From an uncultured Schlesneria sp. (lineage in GTDB: Bacteria > Planctomycetota > Planctomycetia > Planctomycetales > Planctomycetaceae): a stretch of DNA of 45,775 nt. The number at the start of each line of letters is the position of its first letter. Within the stretch, counting starts at the first letter, position 1. The position numbers and the translations under genes are program-made. The notes under the pieces were generated by a model that ran no database searches, had not been told where the DNA came from, and saw only the letters and a list, made by a program, of their open reading frames with translations. The stretch lies in assembly GCA_903840265.1 (NCBI GenBank), contig CAIMFH010000170.1, positions 1 through 45,775 of the forward strand, read 5' to 3'. Shown here piece by piece: positions 10,804 through 36,052 of the stretch.

Positions 10804-11628
10804 TCATTGAACTGGCGATGGAGGAATCGCGACATTGCTGAGTGCCAAGCTGCCGATTGGTGCGATGGTCTCGTTGACAACCACGTTGCTGACTGCTGGA
10901 ACTGTCGTCACGATTTGCGTCGTCGTTGGGACATAGCAGGAGCTGACAACGGGGTATGGTTGAACAACTGGATAGTTGTAGCAGGTGTAGTATCGAGGAT
11001 AGTACCCGCAGGTGTATCCCCAGTTGCCGCAACCGTATCCCCAATTGCTGTATCCGCAGGGATAGTAGCCGGAACCATATCCGCAGCCATAACCATAGTT
11101 GCTGTAGCAACCCCCGTAATTTCCATAGCAGCTACCGTAGTTGCCCCAGCAGCCGCTTCCGTATCCGTAACCCCAAGGTGAGCAGTTCTGCTTAAAGTTC
11201 TTTTGATTTTGCTGCCCGTTCATTCCGTTGTGTTGACCATTCATTCCCTTGTTCAGAATGTTGTTCGAAGAGATCCCCAGGCCATGGCCATTCTTGTTGA
11301 CGTTCGAGGTCAGCACGTTTGACACCTTGTTGTGATTGACGTTGTTGGCCAGGTGAATGTTCGAGTTCTGTACATTCGTCTTATTTGGATTCGACAAGAC
11401 GTTGCCATGATTCGTCGGCAGCTTGAAGGTGTTCGACTGCATGTTGGACACGTTATGCTGAGGCTGAAAATTGCTCACTTGTCGCATCCCCGAGTTGCCA
11501 CCGGACGACTGCATGTGAGAACCGCCACCACCACCGCCGGAACCACCATGGCCAGCATCTGCCTGTGCTCCAAATGCCACCAAAACCGTCATTGCTGCCG
11601 TTGCCAGAATGTTGTGCTTCTTAAACAT
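10804..11628 (-). CDS. secreted low-complexity Asn/Gly/Tyr/Cys-rich protein
   Basis: No known family was recognised. The 274-residue product has a signal peptide (MFKKHNILATAAMTVLVAFGAQADA), then a Gly run, then an Asn/His/Ser-rich stretch (about 45-145). This is followed by about 90 residues built from short Gly-Tyr-Cys-Asn units such as GSCYGNYGGCYSNYGYGCGY, and the C-terminus is Pro/Val-rich. About ten cysteines fall in the Tyr/Gly part. The composition suggests a disulfide-linked or adhesive surface or cell-wall component; this is inference. It is flanked by its own terminator and diverges from the fusion gene at 11831. Confidence 0.8.
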   Translation of the reverse strand: MFKKHNILATAAMTVLVAFGAQADAGHGGSGGGGGGSHMQSSGGNSGMRQVSNFQPQHNVSNMQSNTFKLPTNHGNVLSNPNKTNVQNSNIHLANNVNHNKVSNVLTSNVNKNGHGLGISSNNILNKGMNGQHNGMNGQQNQKNFKQNCSPWGYGYGSGCWGNYGSCYGNYGGCYSNYGYGCGYGSGYYPCGYSNWGYGCGNWGYTCGYYPRYYTCYNYPVVQPYPVVSSCYVPTTTQIVTTVPAVSNVVVNETIAPIGSLALSNVAIPPSPVQ

Positions 11629-11830: not shown

Positions 11831-13525
11831 ATGAGCGATTTCGATTTTGATGCGATCATTGTCGGGCAAGGGCTGGCGGGAACAGCTCTGGCGTGGAACC
11901 TCACGTGGCGACATCAGCGAGTCCTGGTGATCGATCGGGATGAAGCGGTCACCTCATCGCGCGTGGCCGCGGGGCTGATGACGCCGATCACCGGAAAGAA
12001 ATTGGTTCCCAGTTGGCGGTGGGATCGGTTTTGGAACTCGGCCACGAAGTTTTACCGCCGCGTCGAACAGCAGACTTCCAGTTCGTTTTTCTATCCTCAG
12101 CGCATCATTCGACTGCTGGCGACAACTCAAGAGCAACAGTATTTCGCCAAGCGTGTTGAGTCCGAGTTTGTTGGTTTGGTCCGGCAGGCAGAGCCACTCG
12201 TCTCCTCCGAAGAGTTTGATGACTCGCGGGGTGGATTCGAGATGATCGAAGGAGGGCGGTTGAATGTCCCTGCCTACCTGATGGCATCGCGCGAATATTT
12301 TCAACGCCATGACGCCGTGATGAGGAGCGAATTCGATCCGGGCAGCATGGTCGAACTGACGGCGAACGGTGTCCGAATTCCCCGTCTGGACATTTCTGCG
12401 CGACGACTGATTTTCTGCCAGGGGATCGAGGCCACCAGCAATCACTGGTTTCAAAACATTGACTTCAAGCCCGCTAAAGGCGAGATCCTGACAGTCCGCA
12501 TTGAGGGACTGGAGGAAGAGCAGATAGTCAGTCATGGCGTCTGGCTGATGCCCTTAGGCAATGGCTTGTTCCGCGCCGGGGCCACTTATGAGTGGAAGAA
12601 TCTTGATTCGATTCCCACCAACGCTGCTCGTGTCGAGATCTGCCAGCGTTTACGGGAATTCCTTCGATTGCCATTCCAGGTCGTCGGACAAGACGCAGCC
12701 GTCCGCCCCATTCTACGGCATTACTACCCCGTGGTGACTGTGCATCGTGATCATTCTCAACTCGGGTTCTTCAATGGGCTGGGATCTAAAGGAGCATTGC
12801 AGGCACCGTGGCTGGCCGATCATTTCGCGGGTTTCTTGCTCGGGGAACACACGCTCGACCAGACTGTTTCGGGGCACCTCTATGACAGAAGCACCTCTCC
12901 ACAAGTCGCCAGAAATCAAGAAGCAGGGAGTCAATCGATTCCAGCAACTTCGCCGATCTCGTTGACTGAAGTCGCGCACTCGCTGATTGAATCAGTATTG
13001 AAACCTGGTGATGTCGCGGTCGACGCCACCGTGGGAAACGGTCATGACACGCAGTTTCTGGCAAGCTCTGTCGGGACTTTAGGGACGGTATACGGTTTTG
13101 ATATCCAAGCGATTGCCATTGAAGCGACAAGACAGCGGTTAGCAAGCGCAGGAATTGAAAACGTGAAGCTGTTTCACCGCAGTCATGCCGAAATGCTGGA
13201 GGCGCTTGCGGAACTGAACGTGGAAAACGTCAATGCAATCACGCTGAATCTGGGCTATTTGCCGTCGGGCGATAAAGAGGTGATTACCCAAGCCGACTCG
13301 ACTAGCTCCGCGATCCGGGGTGGTCTATCGCTGCTTGCACACGGTGGAATCATGACGATTCTCGCCTATACAGGGCATGCTGGTGGGAACGAAGAAGCCT
13401 GTGCAGTCGAATCCCTTCTCAAGGGACTGCCCGCTATCGATTTCGAAGTTGAGGAGCAATCGGCTGCCAAAGGCCGCAGATCTGCTCCGCGACTCTTCGT
13501 CATCCGTAAGAACTTGCCGTTTTAA
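11831..13525 (+). CDS. fused FAD-dependent oxidoreductase (DAO) and MnmM/YtqB-type SAM methyltransferase
   Basis: A 564-residue two-domain protein. Residues 1-345 are a DAO-fold FAD oxidoreductase: GQGLAG dinucleotide motif at 12-17, SSRVAAGLMTPITGKK at 43-57, KGEILTVR near 217, and GATYEWKN and FFNGLGSKGALQAPW near the C-end. This resembles the family that includes the MnmC oxidase domain. After a polar linker (about 346-375), residues 376-564 form a class I methyltransferase of the YtqB (rRNA_methylase, now MnmM) family, with SAM motif VDATVGNGHD (397-406), LNLGYLPSGDK (472-482) and YTGHAGGNEE. In E. coli, MnmC joins the same two activities: cmnm5U to nm5U by the oxidase, then nm5U to mnm5U by an unrelated methyltransferase. 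I infer a tRNA wobble-uridine role. The reading frame is continuous across both domains. Confidence 0.85.
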   Translation: MSDFDFDAIIVGQGLAGTALAWNLTWRHQRVLVIDRDEAVTSSRVAAGLMTPITGKKLVPSWRWDRFWNSATKFYRRVEQQTSSSFFYPQRIIRLLATTQEQQYFAKRVESEFVGLVRQAEPLVSSEEFDDSRGGFEMIEGGRLNVPAYLMASREYFQRHDAVMRSEFDPGSMVELTANGVRIPRLDISARRLIFCQGIEATSNHWFQNIDFKPAKGEILTVRIEGLEEEQIVSHGVWLMPLGNGLFRAGATYEWKNLDSIPTNAARVEICQRLREFLRLPFQVVGQDAAVRPILRHYYPVVTVHRDHSQLGFFNGLGSKGALQAPWLADHFAGFLLGEHTLDQTVSGHLYDRSTSPQVARNQEAGSQSIPATSPISLTEVAHSLIESVLKPGDVAVDATVGNGHDTQFLASSVGTLGTVYGFDIQAIAIEATRQRLASAGIENVKLFHRSHAEMLEALAELNVENVNAITLNLGYLPSGDKEVITQADSTSSAIRGGLSLLAHGGIMTILAYTGHAGGNEEACAVESLLKGLPAIDFEVEEQSAAKGRRSAPRLFVIRKNLPF

Positions 13526-13564: not shown

Positions 13565-14428
13565 TCATAGTGCCTTTTCGGGGTCGAAGCCTTTGACGAG
13601 TTCGTCTTCCCACTCTTCGAGCAACGGCCAGTCGACGGCACACGTACCGAAATCGGCCATGTGCTGATATTCGGTCAGACGATCGATCGTCTTCTGCAGC
13701 TTCGCCCGATTATTGCGGAAGATCGGGCCGTGGCTAGGGAGCAACCATTCGACATCGGCATCGCGGATTCGTTCCAGCGAACTGACGAAAGCCGGCAGAT
13801 CAGACCCGTGATGAGCATCAATATTCCCGACGCAGCCGTCGCGATAGATGTTGTCGCCGGAAAACAGCAACTTCCCCAGTCGGAAGGAGAGTTGACTCGG
13901 GGTGTGGCCGGGTGTGTTCCACACGTCCAGCTTCAGCGAGCCGATGCTCAAGACATCGCCTTCATTGATGGTCTGTTCGATCTTGATGGGCGGCAAATTG
14001 ATCGAAATCTTTTGGGCGCTAATCTCTGCATAGGTGACGATCCGGTCATTCTCGGCCAGCAGGCGCTTGCATTCAGGATGCCCAACTGTGATGGCCTGAG
14101 GAAGAAGTTCCTTGGCGCGTTTTAGCCCCTGAATGTGATCCACATCGGCATGCGTCGCGACCAAGTACTTACAACCTGCCAAGGGGAAATCCATCTGGCG
14201 AATGATATCGATGATTTCTTCAGCGGTGTCTTCAAACCCGATATCGATCAGCATCCATTCATTCGCGTCATGGACGAGATACACGGAGCAGCCAAGCCGC
14301 TGTCGTGCCTGATAATTCATCTCGATCACATTGGGAAACACTTCGCGGCGGGCCAGCATGCTTAAAGCTTTCGTGACAGCTTTGGGTTGAAAAGACGCTC
14401 GCGATGGCTGAGTCGGGAATATTGCCAT
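13565..14428 (-). CDS. MBL-fold metallo-hydrolase
   Basis: A metallo-beta-lactamase-fold hydrolase of 287 residues. Metal-binding motifs are THADVDH at 92-98, NTPGHTPSQ (third histidine), FSGDNIY (bridging aspartate) and LLPSHGP (last histidine). The HxDxDH form lacks the second histidine of the common HxHxDH motif; this variant occurs in other MBL proteins. The sequence from [12 protein letters not shown] to IDIGFED forms the usual first beta strands. ATG 14428 is used; ATG 14359 (MLARREVF) is an alternative closer to the domain start. It converges with the fusion gene with a 39-bp gap. Substrate unknown; candidate activities include thioester or lactone hydrolysis. Confidence 0.88.
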
Positions 14429-14560
14429 CCAAGTGAAACATCATTTTAGGGTGGCCAGCAGGCTGGAACAACCGAGTCGTCTCGCGCTTGCATCCACTTG
14501 CGCACGGGCTTACTGTTCCTCAGCGTTATGCCCAAAACTGTCAGTGATCGAGAATTATCG

Positions 14561-14884
14561 ATGCCGAAGCGAAAATCCGCGTCTGAAACCACAGAGTCCA
14601 CTGCGTCGTTTGAAGAATCGCTTGGCGAACTCCAAATGATCGTCTCCGAATTGGAGGATGGGGACATCGGCTTGGAGACGTCACTCGCCAGGTTCGAACG
14701 TGGAATTCGACTACTCCGAACCTGCTATTCGATACTGGAGGCAGCGGAAGCCAAGGTGGAGATTTTGACTAAGTTCCAAGACGGGGAACCCGAGGTGACC
14801 ACATTTGAGGCATCTGCCACGTACGACGTGATTCGCGATACGCCGAGCCGCGACGAATCGACAGAAGAGTCTACCCTGTTTTAG
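14561..14884 (+). CDS. xseB: exodeoxyribonuclease VII small subunit
   Basis: The small subunit of exonuclease VII, which with XseA degrades single-stranded DNA in both directions. The conserved core SFEESLGELQMIVSELEDG, followed by LETSLARFERGIRLL and a short helix, is present and matches the family. The product is 107 residues with an acidic tail of about 35 residues beyond the core. The ATG at 14561 has a GAG-containing stretch upstream; ATG 14528 is an alternative adding 11 residues. No xseA lies in the window, so the large subunit must be elsewhere. Confidence 0.88.
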   Translation: MPKRKSASETTESTASFEESLGELQMIVSELEDGDIGLETSLARFERGIRLLRTCYSILEAAEAKVEILTKFQDGEPEVTTFEASATYDVIRDTPSRDESTEESTLF

Positions 14885-15079: not shown

Positions 15080-17317
15080 ATGAGTGTGGGCTCTTCGACT
15101 GGATTCAATTTATCATCACGAGCTTTAGGACGATGGATTAGTGCCGTTGGGGTCGCTTTGGTTATTGGGCTAATCAATAGCCCCTGTGAAACCAAGGGAC
15201 CAGAAACGACGGTTCATCAAACGCTGCATACCTGTAGCCAGGAATTGTGTACCCCCGGTGGCTGCCGCTCTCTGCCCAACTTGGATGCAGACGGAAAGCA
15301 CGCTTGCGCCTCATTGCCAGTTGATTTTAATCGGTTTAATGCCGTCTCCGGAACTGCGAAGGCTGCCCCGCGAGTAGCCTTCGCACCGGTTGGCGCGAAC
15401 ACATTTGCGCTGCACAGCCGTCCGACCGCCACAAAAGTGATCTATCTCGATTTTGATGGACACGTCACCCAAAACACGCCATGGAATTCTACGAACGCAG
15501 TCATCACAACCACGGCCTACGACACGGACGGCAACCCAGCGACGTTCTCCAGTTCGGAACAGGCAAACATCGTAGAGATTTGGCAACGCGTTGCTGAATG
15601 TTATTCGCCGTTTGATGTGGACGTCACCACTGAGCCTCCTGCGATCGCCGATCTTGTCAACTCCGGTGGAGGTGATACGAAATGGGGTATTCGCGTGCTG
15701 TTTGGTGATTCGAATCCATCTCCTGCACCCGGCTCAGGCGGTGTAGCCTATGTCACCGGCTTTGGTTGGAACTATCAGGGAGGCGCTGTCGACGTCCCTT
15801 GTTTCGTTTTGACCGCAGGGGTCGGGACGAATCCAAAAACAAATGCGGATGCCGCAGTCCATGAAGTTGGCCACACCGTCGGGCTCAGTCACGATGGATT
15901 GTATCCGGCCAGCGATTCACGACACGTCGAATACTACCTGGGGCAAGGAACGGGGAAAGTGGGCTGGGCTCCGCACATGGGGGCCGGCTACTACGTTCCG
16001 ATTGTCCAGTGGAGCAAGGGAGAATATGCGAATCCCAGTAATACTCAAGACGACCTGTCGATCATCACCACACAGAACGGGTTTGGATATCGGCCCGATG
16101 ACTATTCGAGCAGTCAATCGGGTTCCAAAGCATTTCCAGGCACTGCTGGTCCAACGTCATTTGCCGTCAATGTTAGCGGCGTGATCGAGTCACCCACGGA
16201 CGAGGACTGGTTCAAGATCACGGCTGGCTCTGGCCTGATCAAGCTGGATGCCGTGGGCGGACCGGCAAATACAATGCTGGATATCCAACTGAGCCTTTAT
16301 GATTCCAATGGAGCCTTGGTCGTCGCTGCCAATCCGGTGGATGATGTGATCGCCTCAATTAGCAAGTCCGTTTCAGGGGGAACCTTCTACGTCAAGATCG
16401 AAGGAGTTGGATTGGGTAATGTGCTGACAACCGGATACACCGATTACGGTAGCCTGGGCCAATATACGATTACGGGTTCGTACAGCACCGTTGGCATCAA
16501 GGGTGCCCCCGTTCTGACGGCAACTGGTGATCTGTTCTACGGAATCAAGGCTGCACCGCAGCCGATCAATCCCAACATTAAGGTTGCGGACCCCGACAAT
16601 ACCACGTTGGCGAGTGCAACGATCACGATTCAAACACCTGTCCCAAGTCAAGATGTGCTGAGTTTGACGGCCAATACGTCAACCATGGGCAATATCGCCA
16701 GTAGCTACAATGCCAACAGCGGGACACTGACTCTGACATCGGCTGGGGCCACCGCCACAGTGGCGCAATTCCAGACTGCCCTCAGAGCCGTCTCTTACTC
16801 CAACTCCAGTACGGCTCCCACCACAACACCCCGGAAGATCAGTTTTCTCGTCAATGACGGCGTGATCAACAGCAACGCATTAACGAGCACTGTGACAATC
16901 GGATACTACTACATCACCGCTTCGTACGACGCTGGAACAAAGACACTCACAATTGCCGACAATGGCAGCGTTGTTGCTGACAATGCCGTGTCGGTTACCT
17001 TGCGGGGTAATGTGATCTCCGTCGAAGGGGCAGGTGGCACGCGAATCGGTACTTCAGCCAGCAGCCAGCAGGCCGTAACTTTCCCGTTCGTGACTGATGT
17101 CAAGATCCTCGTGAACTTCACGACAGGAAACGATTCCGTATCACTCGTCAGCTTGAAATCCTCAGTGGTGACGTTGAATCTTGGTGATGGTAACGATCTG
17201 GCGAATCTGACCTACTGCACTATAGGGGCTCTCACTGTTGATGGCGGCCCTGGAACCGACGTGGTGCAATTGGTCGGCACGACCACGACGACGAAGGCGT
17301 TGCCCAACGTCCCGTAA
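15080..17317 (+). CDS. secreted metzincin metalloprotease with PPC and cadherin-like domains (copy 1)
   Basis: A 745-residue exported zinc protease. After a long N-terminal hydrophobic segment (about 15-36) come a Cys-containing propeptide-like region and a conserved RPTATKVIYLDFDGHVT. The zinc site HEVGHTVGLSHDG has ligands H261, H265 and H271 with catalytic E262. M300 in PHMGAGYY is the likely Met-turn. Then follow a bacterial pre-peptidase C-terminal (PPC) domain (about 365-470), a cadherin-like repeat (about 480-610) and a C-terminal beta-rich domain with LNLGDGND and GGPGTD repeats. GAGG lies 10 nt before ATG 15080. A close paralogue is at 19050. It probably degrades extracellular protein; substrate unknown. 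Confidence 0.88.
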   Translation: MSVGSSTGFNLSSRALGRWISAVGVALVIGLINSPCETKGPETTVHQTLHTCSQELCTPGGCRSLPNLDADGKHACASLPVDFNRFNAVSGTAKAAPRVAFAPVGANTFALHSRPTATKVIYLDFDGHVTQNTPWNSTNAVITTTAYDTDGNPATFSSSEQANIVEIWQRVAECYSPFDVDVTTEPPAIADLVNSGGGDTKWGIRVLFGDSNPSPAPGSGGVAYVTGFGWNYQGGAVDVPCFVLTAGVGTNPKTNADAAVHEVGHTVGLSHDGLYPASDSRHVEYYLGQGTGKVGWAPHMGAGYYVPIVQWSKGEYANPSNTQDDLSIITTQNGFGYRPDDYSSSQSGSKAFPGTAGPTSFAVNVSGVIESPTDEDWFKITAGSGLIKLDAVGGPANTMLDIQLSLYDSNGALVVAANPVDDVIASISKSVSGGTFYVKIEGVGLGNVLTTGYTDYGSLGQYTITGSYSTVGIKGAPVLTATGDLFYGIKAAPQPINPNIKVADPDNTTLASATITIQTPVPSQDVLSLTANTSTMGNIASSYNANSGTLTLTSAGATATVAQFQTALRAVSYSNSSTAPTTTPRKISFLVNDGVINSNALTSTVTIGYYYITASYDAGTKTLTIADNGSVVADNAVSVTLRGNVISVEGAGGTRIGTSASSQQAVTFPFVTDVKILVNFTTGNDSVSLVSLKSSVVTLNLGDGNDLANLTYCTIGALTVDGGPGTDVVQLVGTTTTTKALPNVP

Positions 17318-17398: not shown

Positions 17399-18979
17399 AT
17401 GCAACATCGTTTGTCTCGATCATTGACGACGCTGGTAGCCTTCGGCTTTACCATCGTCATGCAGCTCAGCGCCCATGTTGCGCCAGCCTGCGCGCAGGGG
17501 CCTCAGCAGATTGCAGAGAAGCCGTGGGCCGCATTCTGGGTCTCCAGCATTGCCCGCCTGCTGACCGACTGTGATGTGATCTACGAGTCCATTGATCGTC
17601 CCGATTTGGCCGAGACGATTGAGGAGCGGCAACAAAAAAGCTATCGCGAGTTCGGAGGGATTGATCGCACTCGACCTCTGGGAATGATGTGGACTTGGGA
17701 CGATATTAAAGATCCGCCAGCCATCATTTTTGTGCCGGTTCAGGACATCAATGAATTGATGGCGACAGCATCATTCGGTGTTGTTGACTATCACCTGGTC
17801 AAAGAGAATCAATACGAAATCGAACGGCCCGGTGCGCCGTATCATGTTCTGGTGCGATCGGGCAATGCCCTCTTCGGTGAGGAGATACCCGCCTTACATG
17901 CTTTGCGCGAAGCTCCGGAACGGATGACGAAAGAGCTGCGCGAAAAATATGATATGGTTTTGATGATCGATCAACGACAGGTTCCGCGCGATGCGAAACA
18001 GGCTTGGATTGATGCGATTCGCAAGCAGTTTGAACCCTGGCTGCAAGCGCAGGACGACGAGTCCAAAGAGTCAGCGACTTTGCGCGGGGCACTCGGCAAG
18101 TCGTTGCTCGATTCGATGAGTGTGCTGATTCACGATGTTCAGACGATCACGGTGGCGGGCCGAATTAATCGGCGAACGCGGCAATTGCAGTTTGATTTGA
18201 CGCTGCAAGCCGAACCCGGCAGCAAAATGGCTGGCGAGTTGAACCGGATGGTGATCCAGCGCAGTCAGTTCTCAGCTCTCGTCAATCGAGACGCCTCGGC
18301 GGGACTCGCGATCAATTGGCCGGTCATGCTATTAGGGAAGGATCTTGTCGCCGCCGTGGGGCCGGAGTCAGCGGGCGGGCGAATAGATCTCGGTGTTCAA
18401 CTCGTTGGCAGTAGCTGGTCCGACATGACCTTGATCGCTGGAATCCGGGGAGCAGAAGCGTCAGCGTTAAATGCGGTCATTCCGCATCTTCTTACCCGCA
18501 TGGAAAAGTCACCCGATGTTACCTCGGTGCATCGCAACACCGCGCAATATCGCGCGGTAGATCTTCACCAGATCGCGCCATCGCGAATTCCGGATCTTTT
18601 GCAGTCAATCACGCCTCCGGGCGTCGAAATCCTAGTGGGGCAAGGAAAGCAAGTTGTGTGGTTGGCAGCAGGTCTGCCCGCGACGTTGCAGGATCGGCTC
18701 AAGGCGGCCATTGACGTGGTGGAGGACGCGCCGAAAGGTGATCGTTCCAATGCTGTCATGCAGGGACGATTGTCAATTGGCAAGTGGCCTGCCGTCGTGC
18801 CAGTCATTGACCCCCAAGATACGCAGTCAGAGTTAAGTGACGCGAAGGATGGTTTCAGCATGTCTGTGCAACCGATTCGCAACGGACTGAAAATTGAATT
18901 CATTGCCGAAGAAGGGCTGTTGCGAGTGATTGGGAGGCATTGGGCGAAGCAAGTCGATCGAGATGCCGCATTTCGATAG
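17399..18979 (+). CDS. secreted hypothetical protein between the two proteases
   Basis: No family was recognised. The 526-residue protein has a signal peptide (about 1-33, ending near PACAQG) and no further membrane segment. The mature part is mixed, starting KPWAAFWVSSIARLLTDCDVIYESI. It includes a long helical region (about 170-230) and repeated beta-type segments such as TITVAGRINRRTRQLQFDLTL, which recall an internal duplication of a shape seen in other planctomycete exported proteins. AGGGA lies 5 nt before the ATG. It lies between two paralogous proteases on the same strand with gaps of 81 and 70 bp. A role with them (inhibitor, chaperone or substrate) is possible but unproven. Confidence 0.75.
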   Translation: MQHRLSRSLTTLVAFGFTIVMQLSAHVAPACAQGPQQIAEKPWAAFWVSSIARLLTDCDVIYESIDRPDLAETIEERQQKSYREFGGIDRTRPLGMMWTWDDIKDPPAIIFVPVQDINELMATASFGVVDYHLVKENQYEIERPGAPYHVLVRSGNALFGEEIPALHALREAPERMTKELREKYDMVLMIDQRQVPRDAKQAWIDAIRKQFEPWLQAQDDESKESATLRGALGKSLLDSMSVLIHDVQTITVAGRINRRTRQLQFDLTLQAEPGSKMAGELNRMVIQRSQFSALVNRDASAGLAINWPVMLLGKDLVAAVGPESAGGRIDLGVQLVGSSWSDMTLIAGIRGAEASALNAVIPHLLTRMEKSPDVTSVHRNTAQYRAVDLHQIAPSRIPDLLQSITPPGVEILVGQGKQVVWLAAGLPATLQDRLKAAIDVVEDAPKGDRSNAVMQGRLSIGKWPAVVPVIDPQDTQSELSDAKDGFSMSVQPIRNGLKIEFIAEEGLLRVIGRHWAKQVDRDAAFR

Positions 18980-19049
18980 CTCTGTATTTGGCAAATGGCA
19001 AATTGGTAGCATACTCTCGATGTGGTGAATCGTGCGCGAGGGGAAAGTT

Positions 19050-21254
19050 ATGTTTATGAATCACATCACTCGATCTGACGTTTGTTCACGTTCCGCGTTG
19101 CGATGCGTTTTCGCCACGATCGTCGCGATCACATTGAGTACGCTCGGTAGTCCCTGCCAAACTGAAAGCCGGATTTGTCTGACGGAGCATCACTGTCGTT
19201 CGCAAACGCAGTGTGGAATGTTGGCCGGGTCTGCATCACTTGGCAAACACGCCTGCGCTTCGGCCCCTGTCGACTTCAATCGTGCGACTGCATCCAGGCA
19301 CTTGGCCGCGCCCCGAATTGCTGCTCCCGTCCCGGCCAACGTCTTTCAACTCCACAGTCGCCCTGGTGCGACCAAAGTGATCTATCTCGATTTCGACGGT
19401 CAAGTGACCAGGAGCACGCCTTGGAATCAGTCCACAGCCACGATTACAACCACCGCTTATGATGTCGATTCGAATCCCAGTTCGTTCTCGTCGACAGAAC
19501 TGGCCAACATCTATGAAATCTGGCAACGCGTTGCCGAGTGCTATTCTCCCTTTGATGTCGACGTGACGACTCAGGCTCCCGCAGTCGCCGATCTCATTAA
19601 CACTGGCAGCGGTGACACCAAGTGGGGCATCCGCGTGTTGTTTGGTGTTTCGACACCCTCGCCCGCGCCCAATTCGGGTGGGGTCGCCTACGTCGGCGGA
19701 TTCGGTTGGAACTACGGAAAGGGTGCCGACGTTCCTTGCTTTGTGCTTCAAGATGGTGTCGGGACCGTACCAAAGTACAACGCCGACGCCGCAGTGCATG
19801 AAGCAGGCCATACATTGGGACTCAGCCATGACGGCTTGTACCCCGCCAACAGCTCGAAGCACGTTGAGTATTACGAAGGACAGGGAACGGGAAAAGTCGC
19901 CTGGGCACCTCATCTGGGGGCCGGTTACTATGTTCCCCTCGTCCAATGGAGCAAGGGTGAATACGCGAACGCCAGTAACACGGAAGATGATCTCAATATC
20001 ATCGCCACGCAGAACGGCTTCGGCGTTCGGGTGGATGATTTTGCGAGTGCCCAGTCCGCCGCAGTACAGATCCCAGGCGCGACCGGCAGCGGAACCTATC
20101 AGATCAGCGTCTCGGGCGTGATCGAAACCCGCGCGGATACCGATTGGTTCAAGCTGACTGCGGGAGCAGGAACGCTCACGGTTAATGCCGTCGGCGGGCC
20201 CGCGAATTCGATGCTTGATATTCAACTGAGTTTGTACGATGCCAATGGGTCGCTGGTTACGACGGCGAACCCGCCGGACGATATCGTCGCATCACTCAGC
20301 CAGACGGTAACCAGCGGCGTCTACTACCTCAAAGTTGAAGGGGTCGCACTGGGAAGTCCGCTGACGACGGGCTACACGGATTACAGCAGTCTGGGCCAGT
20401 ACACGATTAGCGGCAGCTACAGCACCAGCAGCACGCTGACCAACACCAACGCCCCCATCCTGAGTGGCACAGGCGATCTGTTCTACCCGGTCAAATCCGC
20501 GCCCCTGGCGATTAATCCCAACATCAAGATTACCGATTCAGACAGCACGACTATGGCGAACGCATCGGTCAAGATTCAAACGCCCGTACCAAGCCAGGAC
20601 GTGTTAAGTCTAGCCGTCAACTCGCAGACAATGGGCAATATCGTCGCGAGCTATGACAGTTCGACGGGAACGTTGTCCCTCACCTCCGCGGGAGCGACGG
20701 CGACTTTAGCACAGTTCCAGACTGCATTCCGGGCAGTTGCTTATTCCAACTCCAGTGCATCACCAACGACTACACCTCGAAAGGTGAACTTCATCGTCAG
20801 CGACGGCACAAAAGCCAGCAACGTGCTGGTTAGCACCGTCAGCATCGGCAACTACCACGTCGCTGCAACCTACAATGCCAGTACGAAAACTTTGACGCTA
20901 ACCGACGATGCCAACGACAATGCTATTGCCATCACACTACGTGGCAGTCAGTTGACCATCCAAGGTGCGGGCGCAACGCTGATCGGAACCGGCGCGAGTG
21001 CCGTGCAATCGGTCTCTTTCACAGTCGGAAGTGACGTGAAAGTTGTGGGGACTTTTACAGGCGGCAATGATCAGATCTCGATTTCCGGTTTGCGTTCTTC
21101 CAGCATGGCGTTCAGTCTCGGAGACGGAAACGACGGACTGAGCCTGACGCTTTGCAACATCACCAAGTTAACGGTCGATGGTGGTGCCGGAACCGATACC
21201 GTCACCACGTCGGGGACGGTGATTACCTCCAAAACCTATACCGCCGTTCCCTAG
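19050..21254 (+). CDS. secreted metzincin metalloprotease with PPC and cadherin-like domains (copy 2)
   Basis: A 734-residue paralogue of the 15080 gene with the same order: signal-like segment, Cys-containing pro-region, ATKVIYLDFDGQVT, zinc site, PPC domain, cadherin-like repeat, and C-terminal LGDGND/GGAGTD region. The zinc ligands H250, H254 and H260 and the catalytic E251 of HEAGHTLGLSHDG are intact. The expected Met-turn methionine is leucine (L289, PHLGAGYY), unlike copy 1. The ATG at 19050 has AGGGG about 6 nt upstream and is preferred to the GTG at 19032. The gene ends 3 bp before the stop of the convergent HerA-like gene, so the two share no room for a separate terminator. Confidence 0.87.
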   Translation: MFMNHITRSDVCSRSALRCVFATIVAITLSTLGSPCQTESRICLTEHHCRSQTQCGMLAGSASLGKHACASAPVDFNRATASRHLAAPRIAAPVPANVFQLHSRPGATKVIYLDFDGQVTRSTPWNQSTATITTTAYDVDSNPSSFSSTELANIYEIWQRVAECYSPFDVDVTTQAPAVADLINTGSGDTKWGIRVLFGVSTPSPAPNSGGVAYVGGFGWNYGKGADVPCFVLQDGVGTVPKYNADAAVHEAGHTLGLSHDGLYPANSSKHVEYYEGQGTGKVAWAPHLGAGYYVPLVQWSKGEYANASNTEDDLNIIATQNGFGVRVDDFASAQSAAVQIPGATGSGTYQISVSGVIETRADTDWFKLTAGAGTLTVNAVGGPANSMLDIQLSLYDANGSLVTTANPPDDIVASLSQTVTSGVYYLKVEGVALGSPLTTGYTDYSSLGQYTISGSYSTSSTLTNTNAPILSGTGDLFYPVKSAPLAINPNIKITDSDSTTMANASVKIQTPVPSQDVLSLAVNSQTMGNIVASYDSSTGTLSLTSAGATATLAQFQTAFRAVAYSNSSASPTTTPRKVNFIVSDGTKASNVLVSTVSIGNYHVAATYNASTKTLTLTDDANDNAIAITLRGSQLTIQGAGATLIGTGASAVQSVSFTVGSDVKVVGTFTGGNDQISISGLRSSSMAFSLGDGNDGLSLTLCNITKLTVDGGAGTDTVTTSGTVITSKTYTAVP

Positions 21255-23780: not shown

Positions 23781-24980
23781 CTACTCGACTTTCGAAGGCG
23801 ACCGACTCGGTTCGATCACTCCTCGAGCCATCCTGACGATCTTGGGATCGAGCCCGTCGAGAAACTGACGGGCTTTGATGGCGGTCGTCGGCAGTGCATC
23901 GGGCGAAGTGGCCTTGCCATCCTTCTCGCAAACGAGTGCGAAAATCACGATCTGCTGCTTACCAAAGTTCGAATCGAATGGCTCTTTCCCATAGGCGGCA
24001 ATCAATCGATCAAGCGACTGCCAGTCCTTCCAGCGAGCCAGATGTTTCACGACATTGGACGCCAACTTCGGATGATCGATGAATCGACGCATCGCCTCGC
24101 AGACGACAGGTGAGGGGATGCGATCCGGACAGTAATCGCGGAGGAACACTAAGGCATTTTCAATCAGCATCAAATCATCTTCAGCTCGACGATCAGCCAG
24201 CTTTGCGTCCATCAACTTCTGCAGACCGCGTTCACCTTGAATGAGGATATACCCGGCCATCATGCCATCCACGCCGAAACGGGGCTGGTCAGGCTCAGGC
24301 AGTTTCATGATCAACTTTTCGAGGAACTCGGCATCGCTGTCGTCTCCACACAACCCCAGCATCATCCCGTAAAGTCCTAAACGGACACGAATCTGCGGAT
24401 CATCTGACGCAAGCCATGCACGCAGCTTCTGGCGAGGCAACTTGGGTGCCAACGCTGCCACATCCTTGAATGATGCACGACTGAATTCCGCATAGGCGTC
24501 CGCGCAGATCTCGGCGTCTGGGAACTCCAGAAACTTCAAGAAGAACGACAATCGATCTGCTGTCTCCGGGGGCGGCACCTTGCGGATGTAGGCGTAGAGA
24601 TATTCGCCACCCAGCGAAATGGGGTCATCCCAATTCAGTTCGCCGTCCTTTTCAAATCCCAGCATCAAGAACAATTCACCCGGCTTGCCATTACGCGCAT
24701 AGCTAATGGTGACGGGTGTATTCTCCTTGAACCTAGGGTCGGGGCGATATGATTTCACGACCTCGAAGGTTGTTTTGGCGTCCTGAAGGTTCTTGTCGGA
24801 CGTAATCGAAACCCATTTCACTTCGACTGCGACCTGGCAAGTGGCCAGCCGCTCGCTATAGGGAGGCTTGCTGGGAGCGCAGAATGGGCAACCTGGAACC
24901 GCATACGCCGAACTTGCTGCGGCGGAAATTGCCAGAAGGGCAACGATCCCTCCGATCAATCGACCTATCCGTGGTTTCAT
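23781..24980 (-). CDS. secreted CPFC-motif protein, helical repeats (paralogue B)
   Basis: Unrecognised family. The 399-residue protein has a signal peptide and, right after the likely cleavage site, GCPFCAPSKPPYSERL. A beta-rich domain (about 45-145, including NTPVTISYARNGKPGELFLMLG) is followed by a long helical region (about 150-390) that looks like HEAT-type repeats, including LGLYGMMLGLCGDDSDAEFLEKLI. It is a clear paralogue of the gene just upstream (25163-26440) and shares the CPFC, FLKFLE, GLYGMMLGLCG and helical pattern. The CxxC pair at the mature N-terminus could be redox-active or hold a metal; that is inference. The two genes are on the same strand, 182 bp apart. Confidence 0.8.
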   Translation of the reverse strand: MKPRIGRLIGGIVALLAISAAASSAYAVPGCPFCAPSKPPYSERLATCQVAVEVKWVSITSDKNLQDAKTTFEVVKSYRPDPRFKENTPVTISYARNGKPGELFLMLGFEKDGELNWDDPISLGGEYLYAYIRKVPPPETADRLSFFLKFLEFPDAEICADAYAEFSRASFKDVAALAPKLPRQKLRAWLASDDPQIRVRLGLYGMMLGLCGDDSDAEFLEKLIMKLPEPDQPRFGVDGMMAGYILIQGERGLQKLMDAKLADRRAEDDLMLIENALVFLRDYCPDRIPSPVVCEAMRRFIDHPKLASNVVKHLARWKDWQSLDRLIAAYGKEPFDSNFGKQQIVIFALVCEKDGKATSPDALPTTAIKARQFLDGLDPKIVRMARGVIEPSRSPSKVE

Positions 24981-25162: not shown

Positions 25163-26440
25163 TCACTTCAACAGGAAGAACCGCTTCGCTTCATGTACCG
25201 TTTTGGGATCGCGTTTCTCCAAGTCCTCAAGGCAGGCCAGGGCTTTGGTGACATGCTCTGGAACAGGAACTTGTGCGACCGCCGCAGCCGATCCTGTCTC
25301 GCCGGTACTTTCCTCTTTCTTCACCCCTGTGTCTTTTGCGGCAGCCAGCGTGAATCGCACGATGGCCCGCTTAATCGAAGGAATGTTGTAGGCCTCGGCT
25401 TCATACAGCTCCATCAACTGATTCTGGACGGTCCAGTCCTTCATACGTGCCAGATCAGCAATGACCAGGTCGGCTAACTCGGGACGGTCCAATAAGATCC
25501 GCATCGATTGACGCAGGCGATCATGGTCAATCCGGTTGTCGCCGTACTGCCACATGAACCGCAGAGCCTGCATCGCAGCGTACGTCTCGCTGAAAGGGGC
25601 CTTCTTGTCCCGAAGTTTTTTCTCTTCCAGGATGGTCAGTCCTTTGTCCCCAGTCAGCAGCAGATAGCCGCCCATCACCCCATCGATCCCCAGACGAAAC
25701 TCTTCCTTCGGTTCGATGATCTTCTCTTCCATCATCTTGGCGTCATCGTCGTTGCCACATAGACCGAGCATCATTCCATACAGGCCAATCCGCCCTGGTG
25801 ATACCGTTCCGTCTGATGAATTCTTATCCCCGGATGGCTTCCCTGAAGCGACCGCAGGTTTTCCTTCCACCCAATGTCGCAACTTCTCGCGAGGCATTTC
25901 TTTGGAGAGCAGAACGACATCTGCGTAAGAGGCATTGGCGAATTCACCAAATGCATCGTCGGCAATCATATGGTCTGAATTCTCGAGGTACTTCAAAAAG
26001 TACGACAATCGTTTGACGGCGGGCTCTTCGGGCTTGGGAGAGTTCTTCATGTACTCGTAGCCAGCCTGAGTCACTTCGAGTGGGCTGCCCCATTCAATAT
26101 TGCCGGCCCCGACTGTTCCCAGCAGCAGGAACAAATCACCCATCTTGCCTGAACGATATCGGATCAGATTGACCTTGGTTCCCTTCTGCAGTTTGCCTGC
26201 AGCAGGTTGTCGAACGACTTCAATCACTTCGAAGTCCGTCGATCCTGCATCTGTTGCTTTCGCCGGGGCCCCGCCGACCCATTTCACTAATACGGCAGAA
26301 TCGGCACCGCTCAACTGCTCGGTCAGGGTCAATGAGGGAGCCGAACAGAAAGGACACGCCTTGGCGGTGGGAGCCATGGAAACTGCCAGCACCAAAGTGG
26401 CAGCACAAACAAAAGTCCATGCGAATTGAGACGGCTTCAT
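25163..26440 (-). CDS. secreted CPFC-motif protein, helical repeats (paralogue A)
   Basis: Unrecognised family, paralogous to 23781-24980. The 425 residues start with a signal peptide (MKPSQFAWTFVCAATLVLAV) and the mature end begins ACPFCSAPSLTLTEQLSGAD. The same beta domain (SAVLVKWVGG, FEVIEVVRQP, LIRYRSGKMGDLFLLLG) and helical repeats (GRIGLYGMMLGLCGNDDDA, FRLGIDGVMGGYLLLTG) follow. It differs by an insert of about 18 residues rich in Gly, Ser and Lys near residue 195 and by a Glu/Val-rich spacer near the C-terminus. CPFC is not preceded by a convincing lipobox, so it is probably soluble in the periplasm. Tandem duplication is the simplest origin of the pair. Confidence 0.8.
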   Translation of the reverse strand: MKPSQFAWTFVCAATLVLAVSMAPTAKACPFCSAPSLTLTEQLSGADSAVLVKWVGGAPAKATDAGSTDFEVIEVVRQPAAGKLQKGTKVNLIRYRSGKMGDLFLLLGTVGAGNIEWGSPLEVTQAGYEYMKNSPKPEEPAVKRLSYFLKYLENSDHMIADDAFGEFANASYADVVLLSKEMPREKLRHWVEGKPAVASGKPSGDKNSSDGTVSPGRIGLYGMMLGLCGNDDDAKMMEEKIIEPKEEFRLGIDGVMGGYLLLTGDKGLTILEEKKLRDKKAPFSETYAAMQALRFMWQYGDNRIDHDRLRQSMRILLDRPELADLVIADLARMKDWTVQNQLMELYEAEAYNIPSIKRAIVRFTLAAAKDTGVKKEESTGETGSAAAVAQVPVPEHVTKALACLEDLEKRDPKTVHEAKRFFLLK

Positions 26441-34792: not shown

Positions 34793-36052
34793 ATGGCCGC
34801 GAAGCCACTTCGGTTGCTGCACGCCGCGAACTTGCGGCTTGATTGCCCGCTCCAGCAGTTTGGCACGTGGACTGATGAAGTTCGTGACATCGTTGAAACC
34901 GCCACGTTCGTCGCGTTCGAGCGGCTGATCAGCTTGGCGATCGAACGTGATGTCGATGCCCTGTTGATTACCGGGAACAGCTTTGATTCCTCGGTCGCCA
35001 GCCTGTCAGCCGAAGTCGCCCTGCGAAATGGCTTTGAACGGCTCAACGAGAGATCCATTCCCGTGTTTGTCACACCGGGCCATTTGGATCCGATTGCCGC
35101 GTGGGACGACATCCCCGCACTCCCCGAGAATGTGACGATTCTGGCCAATGCCGATGACACGCCCGTGGACCTCACTGACCATGGACGACTGCTGGCAACG
35201 CTGCTTCCAGTCACTGCCGATTCCGCGGTGGAACCACATGAGCTCGATAATATTCTGGCCGCGCGATCGACGCATGCCACCGATCGACCATTCGTCATTG
35301 GCCTGGCGTTGCCGATGCGAGAATCGGTCCGAGGCAATCTGGCAACTCGATTCGCCGCGCTGGACTGGCTGGCCTGTGCCGCCGGTGACAATGTCGCGTC
35401 CCACCTGCCGCTGACCGATGGCACAATCAACGCTCAAGAAGGGCCACAAGGACTGTCTGCTGACGAATCCGGCCCGCGCGGCGTGACTCTGCTGGAATTG
35501 GACTCTCAACGTCGAGTCAAGCAGACCACGATTCCACTTTGCCCCGTTCGCTGGGAACAGATCACGCAATCGCTCGATCGAGTCACCAGTAAGGACGATT
35601 TTCTGGAGCGGATGATGGCGGCTGTCGAACGCTTGCCGTCACCACCTGGTGAATTGATGCGCATCGTCCATTGGAAACTGGATCGAACCACCGGCGAATC
35701 CCGCGGTTGGGAGATGGAGTCCGCAATTCAAGAACTGACAGCCAGCCTGACGGAATTGACCGATCAACCCGATGGCTTGCGGTACATCCACCAAATCCAG
35801 CCTCTGGATCCGGATCTGTCGCTGATCGAATCAGCCCATCGTGAATTGCTGACGGAATTCTTGTTGGCTTTGGATCGTCGGACACCCATCGAACGATCAG
35901 CAATGGGCCGCTGGCTGACAGAGGCAAAGTTGAGTGAAGTGATGAAGTCGAATCGCTGGGAATCGTGGGCAGATTCCGTAACGCCAGAAACAGTGGCCGA
36001 GCGGGCTCAGCAACTCGGCTGGCAATGGTTCGCGACAATCGGCAAGAAATAG
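34793..36052 (+). CDS. SbcD/YhaO-like metallophosphoesterase homologue with lost metal ligands
   Basis: A 419-residue protein aligned by eye to the SbcD/Mre11/YhaO nuclease family, which uses two metals held by D-x-H, GD, GNHD, H and GHxH motifs. The framework is clear, but the ligands are replaced. LLHAANLRLD stands for LHxADLHLD (N13 and R15 for Asp and His). LLITGNSFDS stands for the GD motif (N62). TPGHLDP stands for GNHD (H97, L98). No GHxH is visible later. The C-terminal helical capping region is retained. GAAGGGA lies 8 nt before ATG 34793. The SbcC/YhaN-like ATPase gene follows after 102 bp. The protein is most likely a non-catalytic adaptor; family membership is by motif layout only. 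Confidence 0.8.
   Translation: MAAKPLRLLHAANLRLDCPLQQFGTWTDEVRDIVETATFVAFERLISLAIERDVDALLITGNSFDSSVASLSAEVALRNGFERLNERSIPVFVTPGHLDPIAAWDDIPALPENVTILANADDTPVDLTDHGRLLATLLPVTADSAVEPHELDNILAARSTHATDRPFVIGLALPMRESVRGNLATRFAALDWLACAAGDNVASHLPLTDGTINAQEGPQGLSADESGPRGVTLLELDSQRRVKQTTIPLCPVRWEQITQSLDRVTSKDDFLERMMAAVERLPSPPGELMRIVHWKLDRTTGESRGWEMESAIQELTASLTELTDQPDGLRYIHQIQPLDPDLSLIESAHRELLTEFLLALDRRTPIERSAMGRWLTEAKLSEVMKSNRWESWADSVTPETVAERAQQLGWQWFATIGKK

Follow-up and report, generated by a model that had tools for sequence, protein, structure and literature searches.

Could a single protein, assembled from parts other than those of MnmC, complete the modification of the wobble uridine (U34) of transfer RNA (tRNA) in a planctomycete? 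The question is raised by a gene of an uncultured Schlesneria sp., located in a contig of 45,775 nucleotides (CAIMFH010000170.1) that was analysed over its whole length and is called here the window. The gene (positions 11831-13525, forward strand) joins a flavin adenine dinucleotide (FAD) oxidoreductase of the DAO fold to a methyltransferase of the YtqB/MnmM type, and a reading made from the letters alone (the sequence-only reading) had proposed that its product performs both final steps of the mnm5(s2)U pathway. We consider it likely that the fusion is a bifunctional tRNA wobble-uridine enzyme, MnmC-like in action and made of other parts, which would convert 5-carboxymethylaminomethyl(-2-thio)uridine (cmnm5(s2)U) through 5-aminomethyl(-2-thio)uridine (nm5(s2)U) to 5-methylaminomethyl(-2-thio)uridine (mnm5(s2)U).

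Architecture of the fusion protein

The reading frame runs unbroken from ATG to stop and encodes 564 amino acids. All six motifs named in the sequence-only reading are present (positions counted by hand): GQGLAG (residues 12-17), KGEILTVR (216-223), and GLGSKGALQAPW (316-327) in the oxidase half, and DATVGNGHD (398-406), NLGYLPSGDK (473-482), and YTGHAGG (513-519) in the methylase half. Pfam assigns residues 7-333 to DAO (PF01266, 4.4e-24) and residues 420-558 to PF06962 (1.6e-38). Between the two halves, residues 354-374 show predicted local distance difference test (pLDDT) values below 50 in the structure model. Among the best 120 of 1637 matched homologues, a ranking by score that favours full-length relatives, both domains are found in 112 (the window protein included) and the oxidase domain only in 8. 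Since 112 of these 120 homologues are two-domain proteins, and the genes are fused in 26 of the 297 genomes surveyed in the window's class, the fusion is no assembly accident.

As the sequence-only reading had stated, the layout is that of MnmC with a methylase of a different family. In E. coli MnmC (MnmC2-MnmC1, PDB 3ps9 and 3awi) the methylase is MnmC2 (PF05430) and occupies the N-terminus, whereas in the window fusion it is MnmM and C-terminal, so that the order of the halves is reversed. The window protein reaches 48.9 of the 540 bits set for bifunctional MnmC (NF002480) and thus stays below this model.

The methyltransferase half

The C-terminal half is an MnmM, in agreement with the sequence-only reading. 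It scores 191.3 bits over residues 378-560 against the NCBIfam equivalog model of MnmM (NF053511, cut-off 135) and superposes on B. subtilis MnmM with 1.6 Å over 187 residues; the fold of the MnmM-tRNA structure is matched as well. By profile, fold, and catalytic residues it belongs to the same family as the MnmM (YtqB) of B. subtilis and S. aureus.

In the B. subtilis enzyme, substitution of K11, D34, N101, Y104, K110, Y141, or H144 is reported to nearly abolish the activity, with about one third left in the Y104F variant (PMC9976899). In the alignment these positions correspond to H383, D406, N473, Y476, K482, Y513, and H516 of the window protein, six of the seven being identical. The sole substitution, K11 to H383, lies at a position occupied by H in 70, Q in 25, and K in 1 of 101 MnmM rows, which were taken from the fetched loci and include at least 6 duplicates. 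In the same rows D34, N101, and Y141 are kept in all 101, H144 in 100, and Y104 in 97, while K110 is present as K in 64. The window MnmM thus differs from that of B. subtilis by its position behind an oxidase, by this histidine, and, tentatively, by the apparent loss of contacts to U35 discussed below. From the profile, the superposition, and the active site, methylation of nm5(s2)U34 by this half is very likely.

Pathway genes in the genome of the window

The genome that contains the window (7.49 Mb, 99.98% complete) was inventoried for mnmG, MnmM, MnmC1, MnmC2, the glycine oxidase ThiO, and TIGR01212. The last is a model that we take to cover MnmL; MnmL is a radical S-adenosylmethionine (SAM) protein, of an enzyme class unrelated to the window oxidase. 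The genome carries mnmG (838.5 bits) and a separate ThiO (299.7 bits), and its only MnmM over the cut-off is the fused copy. In the profile search of this genome no MnmC1 passed the cut-off and MnmC2 (PF05430) gave no match; the best score for TIGR01212 was 42 bits at a cut-off of 180. The genome is therefore one with mnmG and without mnmC, as the sequence-only reading had expected.

Co-occurrence of the oxidase and MnmM

The survey of the window's class comprised 297 genomes (the separate searches were taken to cover the same 297, their identifiers agreeing). MnmM was called at the NF053511 cut-off and the oxidase by its family profile (A2) at E ≤1e-30, with at most 11 candidates per genome scored for MnmM and at most 7 for the oxidase and for TIGR01212; some absences may be misses. 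MnmM over the cut-off is found in 92 genomes and the oxidase in 104: both genes in 76, MnmM only in 16, the oxidase only in 28, and neither in 177 (Fisher p 5e-31, shared ancestry ignored). The two genes are fused in 26 of the 76 two-gene genomes (the window's included), adjacent on the same strand in 41, and apart or on separate contigs in 9, and the oxidase comes first in all 67 fused or adjacent cases. The joint survey had been proposed along with the sequence-only reading; within the window's family the genes are present together (60 genomes, in 6 of which they are not neighbours) or absent together (24) in 84 of 84 genomes, none having a single gene. By genus, the pair occurs in 21 (one of them mixed) and is absent from 17. 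This family is very likely Planctomycetaceae, since two of its members match named relatives: G422 shares an identical pair with a Gimesia MAG (L142 and L044), and the MnmM of G178 sits where it does in the Thalassoglobus neptunius genome G449.

The mnm5(s2)U pathway suggested for planctomycetes would be neither general in them nor confined to them: in the wider phylum, a search with the window protein alone gave strong matches to both halves in 5 of 149 genomes, the window's included, with no fused form among the remaining ones, and pairs also occur in other phyla (see below).

TIGR01212 passes its cut-off in 72 of the 297 class genomes, none of which has MnmM over the cut-off or the oxidase. 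The comparison was made to see whether MnmL replaces the pair where the latter is absent; TIGR01212 is never over the cut-off alongside either gene, and accordingly it does not account for the 16 MnmM-only genomes. The single-gene genomes could possibly have nm5U as the end product, use the ammonium route of MnmEG, or employ other partners.

Repeated joining and taxonomic spread

When 76 fused or adjacent pairs are placed on a tree, 6 gains or losses of the fused state are required, and well-supported branches force at least 4 of them. Within the window's genus the genes are fused in 8 of 11 genomes and adjacent in 3. We infer that the fusion arose from an operon, and not the reverse. These data bear on the idea that proximity came without joint function, namely that a generic amino-acid oxidase was co-transcribed with mnmM and became fused to it by chance. 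The 28 oxidase-only genomes of the class would fit this idea, but the repeated changes of the fused state and the full concordance of the family, which extends to the 6 genomes where the genes are not neighbours, make it highly improbable.

As a separate observation, in ten loci (L035, L040, L041, L042, L045, L046, L049, L052, L055, and L072) only one stop codon separates the open stretches of the oxidase and of MnmM, which share a reading frame, as though a single change could join the two or had parted them.

A contig scan covered the best 80 loci, ranked by the match to the whole fusion; this ranking favours joined pairs, a bias of which the class survey is free. Pairs among these loci come from Planctomycetota, Verrucomicrobiota, Hyphomicrobiales, Nitrosomonas, other proteobacteria, and an Ignavibacteria metagenome-assembled genome (MAG), and the fused form is also found in a Puniceicoccaceae MAG (L071). 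Because most of the records are MAGs, binning errors are possible in this distribution. The methylases were checked in 24 genomes, 23 from these loci and the window's own. MnmM is present in 11 of them, the window's included, one of which (G452) also shows a weak PF05430 match of 22 bits. All 8 Bacteroidota examined have the oxidase and MnmC2, with no MnmM over the cut-off. An MnmC2 adjoining the oxidase was sought in these 8 genomes, and in none are the two neighbours, MnmC2 lying elsewhere in the genome. The link between the oxidase and MnmC2 in Bacteroidota is weak, given this separation and the possibility that MnmC2 is widespread in that phylum regardless.

Placement of the oxidase half

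In a tree of 66 rows, calculated by a quick method and containing several long branches, the oxidase family is a single group of 35 rows with a Shimodaira-Hasegawa-like approximate likelihood ratio test (SH-aLRT) support of 100, next to groups of 11 MnmC1 rows (support 98) and 13 ThiO-labelled rows (support 93; profile checks on 8 of these labels placed 7 over the cut-off). The 7 other oxidases of the window genome fall outside the oxidase family. The MnmC1 rows have an insert of ~20-26 residues before the G-S-R-G motif, which the window oxidase lacks. Judged by its sequence, the oxidase half belongs to a separate lineage beside MnmC1 and ThiO and is a member of neither. Its clustering had been named beforehand as a test of the sequence-only reading, and the answer is divided: the half lies outside the MnmC1 clade, which speaks against that reading, and outside the ThiO clade, which speaks for it, about equally far from both.

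Two simple identifications were rejected. The half is not a plain MnmC1, as it is below the cut-off of that model and outside its clade. It is not a ThiO, as it stays well under the cut-off of TIGR02352 (62.1 bits for the whole protein and 64.4 for the domain alone, against 250.8) and in a separate clade, and the genome has a ThiO of its own.

The structure model of the oxidase half has a mean pLDDT of 94.7, and its fold matches include glycine oxidase and MnmC, with no choice offered between the two. A viral structure library gave distant matches only (none above 14% identity among the 50 matches listed). R292 is invariant in the alignment (A1). Its counterpart in E. coli MnmC is Arg567, which is given as an FAD-binding residue kept in >98% of MnmC (PMC3648344, Table 2), although the ThiO rows carry this arginine too.

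The high rank of glycine oxidases, which are the top matches both by fold and in the PDB sequence search, would agree with an oxidase of small, glycine-like molecules that feeds the pathway, for instance with ammonia for the nm5U route of MnmEG, so that only MnmM acts on tRNA; MnmEG is reported to make nm5U directly from ammonium (PMC9976899). We regard this explanation as unlikely. A glycine oxidase would not need to be joined repeatedly to a tRNA methylase, the window genome already has ThiO, and the half reaches 64 of the 251 bits of the ThiO model in a clade apart.

Sarcosine and N-methyltryptophan oxidases, which belong to the same superfamily, remove N-methyl groups. The oxidase could accordingly act on another modified or N-methylated anticodon nucleoside, for example as a demethylase of mnm5U, which would combine a writer and an eraser in the same polypeptide. 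This is very doubtful, as glycine oxidase, iminodiacetate oxidase, and MnmC all come ahead of oxidases of this type in the fold comparison, albeit by small margins, and in a genome without MnmC the missing activity is that of a cmnm5U oxidase.

Proposed function

In the bifunctional reaction that we favour, MnmE-MnmG would first produce cmnm5(s2)U34. The N-terminal FAD oxidase would then oxidise the carboxymethylaminomethyl group at the C-N bond that stems from glycine, giving an imine whose hydrolysis would release glyoxylate and leave nm5(s2)U34. Finally, the MnmM domain at the C-terminus, held on a flexible linker, would transfer a methyl group from SAM to give mnm5(s2)U34. We infer the substrate of the oxidase and the order of the steps, the oxidation being suggested by the pairing with MnmM, the missing mnmC, and the fold. 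Of the earlier proposal that one protein does both steps, the methylation is therefore well founded on profile, structure, and active site, whereas the action of the oxidase on cmnm5U, with 66 of 174 bits to MnmC1, is to be read as conditional.

Several observations weigh against this function. The oxidase half is below the cut-off of the MnmC1 model TIGR03197 (64.2 bits for the whole protein and 66.3 for the domain alone, against 174.2), and the diagnostic columns indicate no preference, 3 being common to MnmC1 only and 4 to ThiO only. Scored with the oxidase-family profile, several ThiO rows (up to 105 bits) exceed E. coli MnmC (77), and the PDB sequence search is led by two glycine oxidases (97 and 90 bits), with MnmC and the B. 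subtilis glycine oxidase at 77 each. A search with E. coli MnmC1 alone missed the window oxidase at E ≤1e-3, though it reached 15 oxidase relatives in the fetched loci (best 1e-9). If the scores favour either side for the oxidase family, it is ThiO. The two genes also occur singly. The oxidase is found without MnmM over the cut-off in 28 of the 297 class genomes, three of which (G379, G423, and G426) have a sub-cut-off MnmM, and MnmM without the oxidase in 16, all of one family (f77; e.g. L115, L125, L127, and L132), where neither the oxidase nor TIGR01212 is over the cut-off. Among the 24 genomes checked for methylases, 5 have the oxidase with neither MnmM over the cut-off nor MnmC2 (L048/G457, L053/G458, L065/G459, L070/G460, and L087/G450). 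Finally, residues Q176 and N178, with which B. subtilis MnmM reads U35, are apparently replaced by G548 and R550; this tentative hand mapping runs through the C. thermocellum row, whose Q-A-N is taken to be the equivalent site. In B. subtilis, alanine replacements at Q176 and N178 are reported to leave 20-60% of the activity (PMC9976899). If the mapping is right and the residues are not kept, the tRNA choice of the fused MnmM may be looser than in B. subtilis.

A broader proposal, which we hold tentatively and at slightly less than an even chance, is that the oxidase represents a third, so far unrecognised lineage of cmnm5U oxidases, neither MnmC1 nor MnmL, that would supply the missing MnmC(o) in a large share of bacteria and would swap methylase partners (MnmM in an operon or fusion, or an unlinked MnmC2 in Bacteroidota). 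The oxidase is a strong candidate for the MnmC(o)-like enzyme of phyla other than those of MnmL, and the fusion makes this candidate directly testable. If the proposed function is true, the MnmC layout would have more than one origin, the methylases coming from different families and the halves standing in opposite order.

Relation to published systems

The MnmM paper describes mnmM and mnmC as mutually exclusive, and its authors did not know which enzyme plays the MnmC(o) part in organisms with MnmM; its main text contains neither 'fusion' nor 'planctomyc' (PMC9976899). MnmL was put forward afterwards: a table in a review lists it beside MnmC as an nm5s2U enzyme, citing Jaroch et al. 2024 (PMC12548931). 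No description of a DAO-MnmM fusion was found in the listed titles and abstract openings on MnmM, MnmL, YurR, cmnm5s2U oxidase, and planctomycete tRNA modification, a scope outside which Jaroch et al. 2024 falls. The abstract of that study reportedly mentions fusion proteins, and it may therefore contain an earlier description of this architecture or of related fusions. The activity is also less hidden under generic annotations than the sequence-only reading had supposed: an NCBIfam equivalog of MnmM exists, and among the best 120 of the 1637 homologues one (P0113) already carries, from its source, the name of a bifunctional cmnm5s2U34 oxidoreductase/methyltransferase, while others are indeed named glycine oxidase.

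Gene layout and neighbours

The coordinates of the gene and its parts are collected in Table 1. The neighbouring frames are both on the opposite strand, at 10804-11628 (no Pfam match) and 13565-14428 (metallo-beta-lactamase fold), and the fusion gene is therefore probably transcribed alone.

Table 1. Positions of the fusion gene and its parts in the window
Feature	Positions	Strand	Evidence
Fusion gene, oxidase-methyltransferase, 564 amino acids	11831..13525	+	Open frame, Pfam, NCBIfam
DAO-fold FAD oxidoreductase half, ~residues 5-345	11843..12865	+	PF01266, tree, structure model, fold matches
R292-P293 of the oxidase half	12704..12709	+	Alignment with E. coli MnmC Arg567
Flexible linker, ~residues 346-377, length variable	12866..12961	+	Alignment, pLDDT
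MnmM methyltransferase half, residues 378-560	12962..13510	+	NF053511
NLGYLPSGDK, residues 473-482	13247..13276	+	N473/Y476/K482 = B. subtilis MnmM N101/Y104/K110
YTGH	13367..13378	+	Y513/H516 = B. subtilis MnmM Y141/H144

Past the metallo-beta-lactamase-fold gene, xseB (Exonuclease VII small subunit) is located at 14498-14884. Long open frames at 23781-24980, 25163-26440, and 34793-36052 have no Pfam match at E ≤0.001. A 526-residue protein (17399-18979, no Pfam match) lies between two long proteins encoded on the same strand (15080-17317 and 19032-21254), each with a weak Reprolysin_3 match, which are possibly related to one another.
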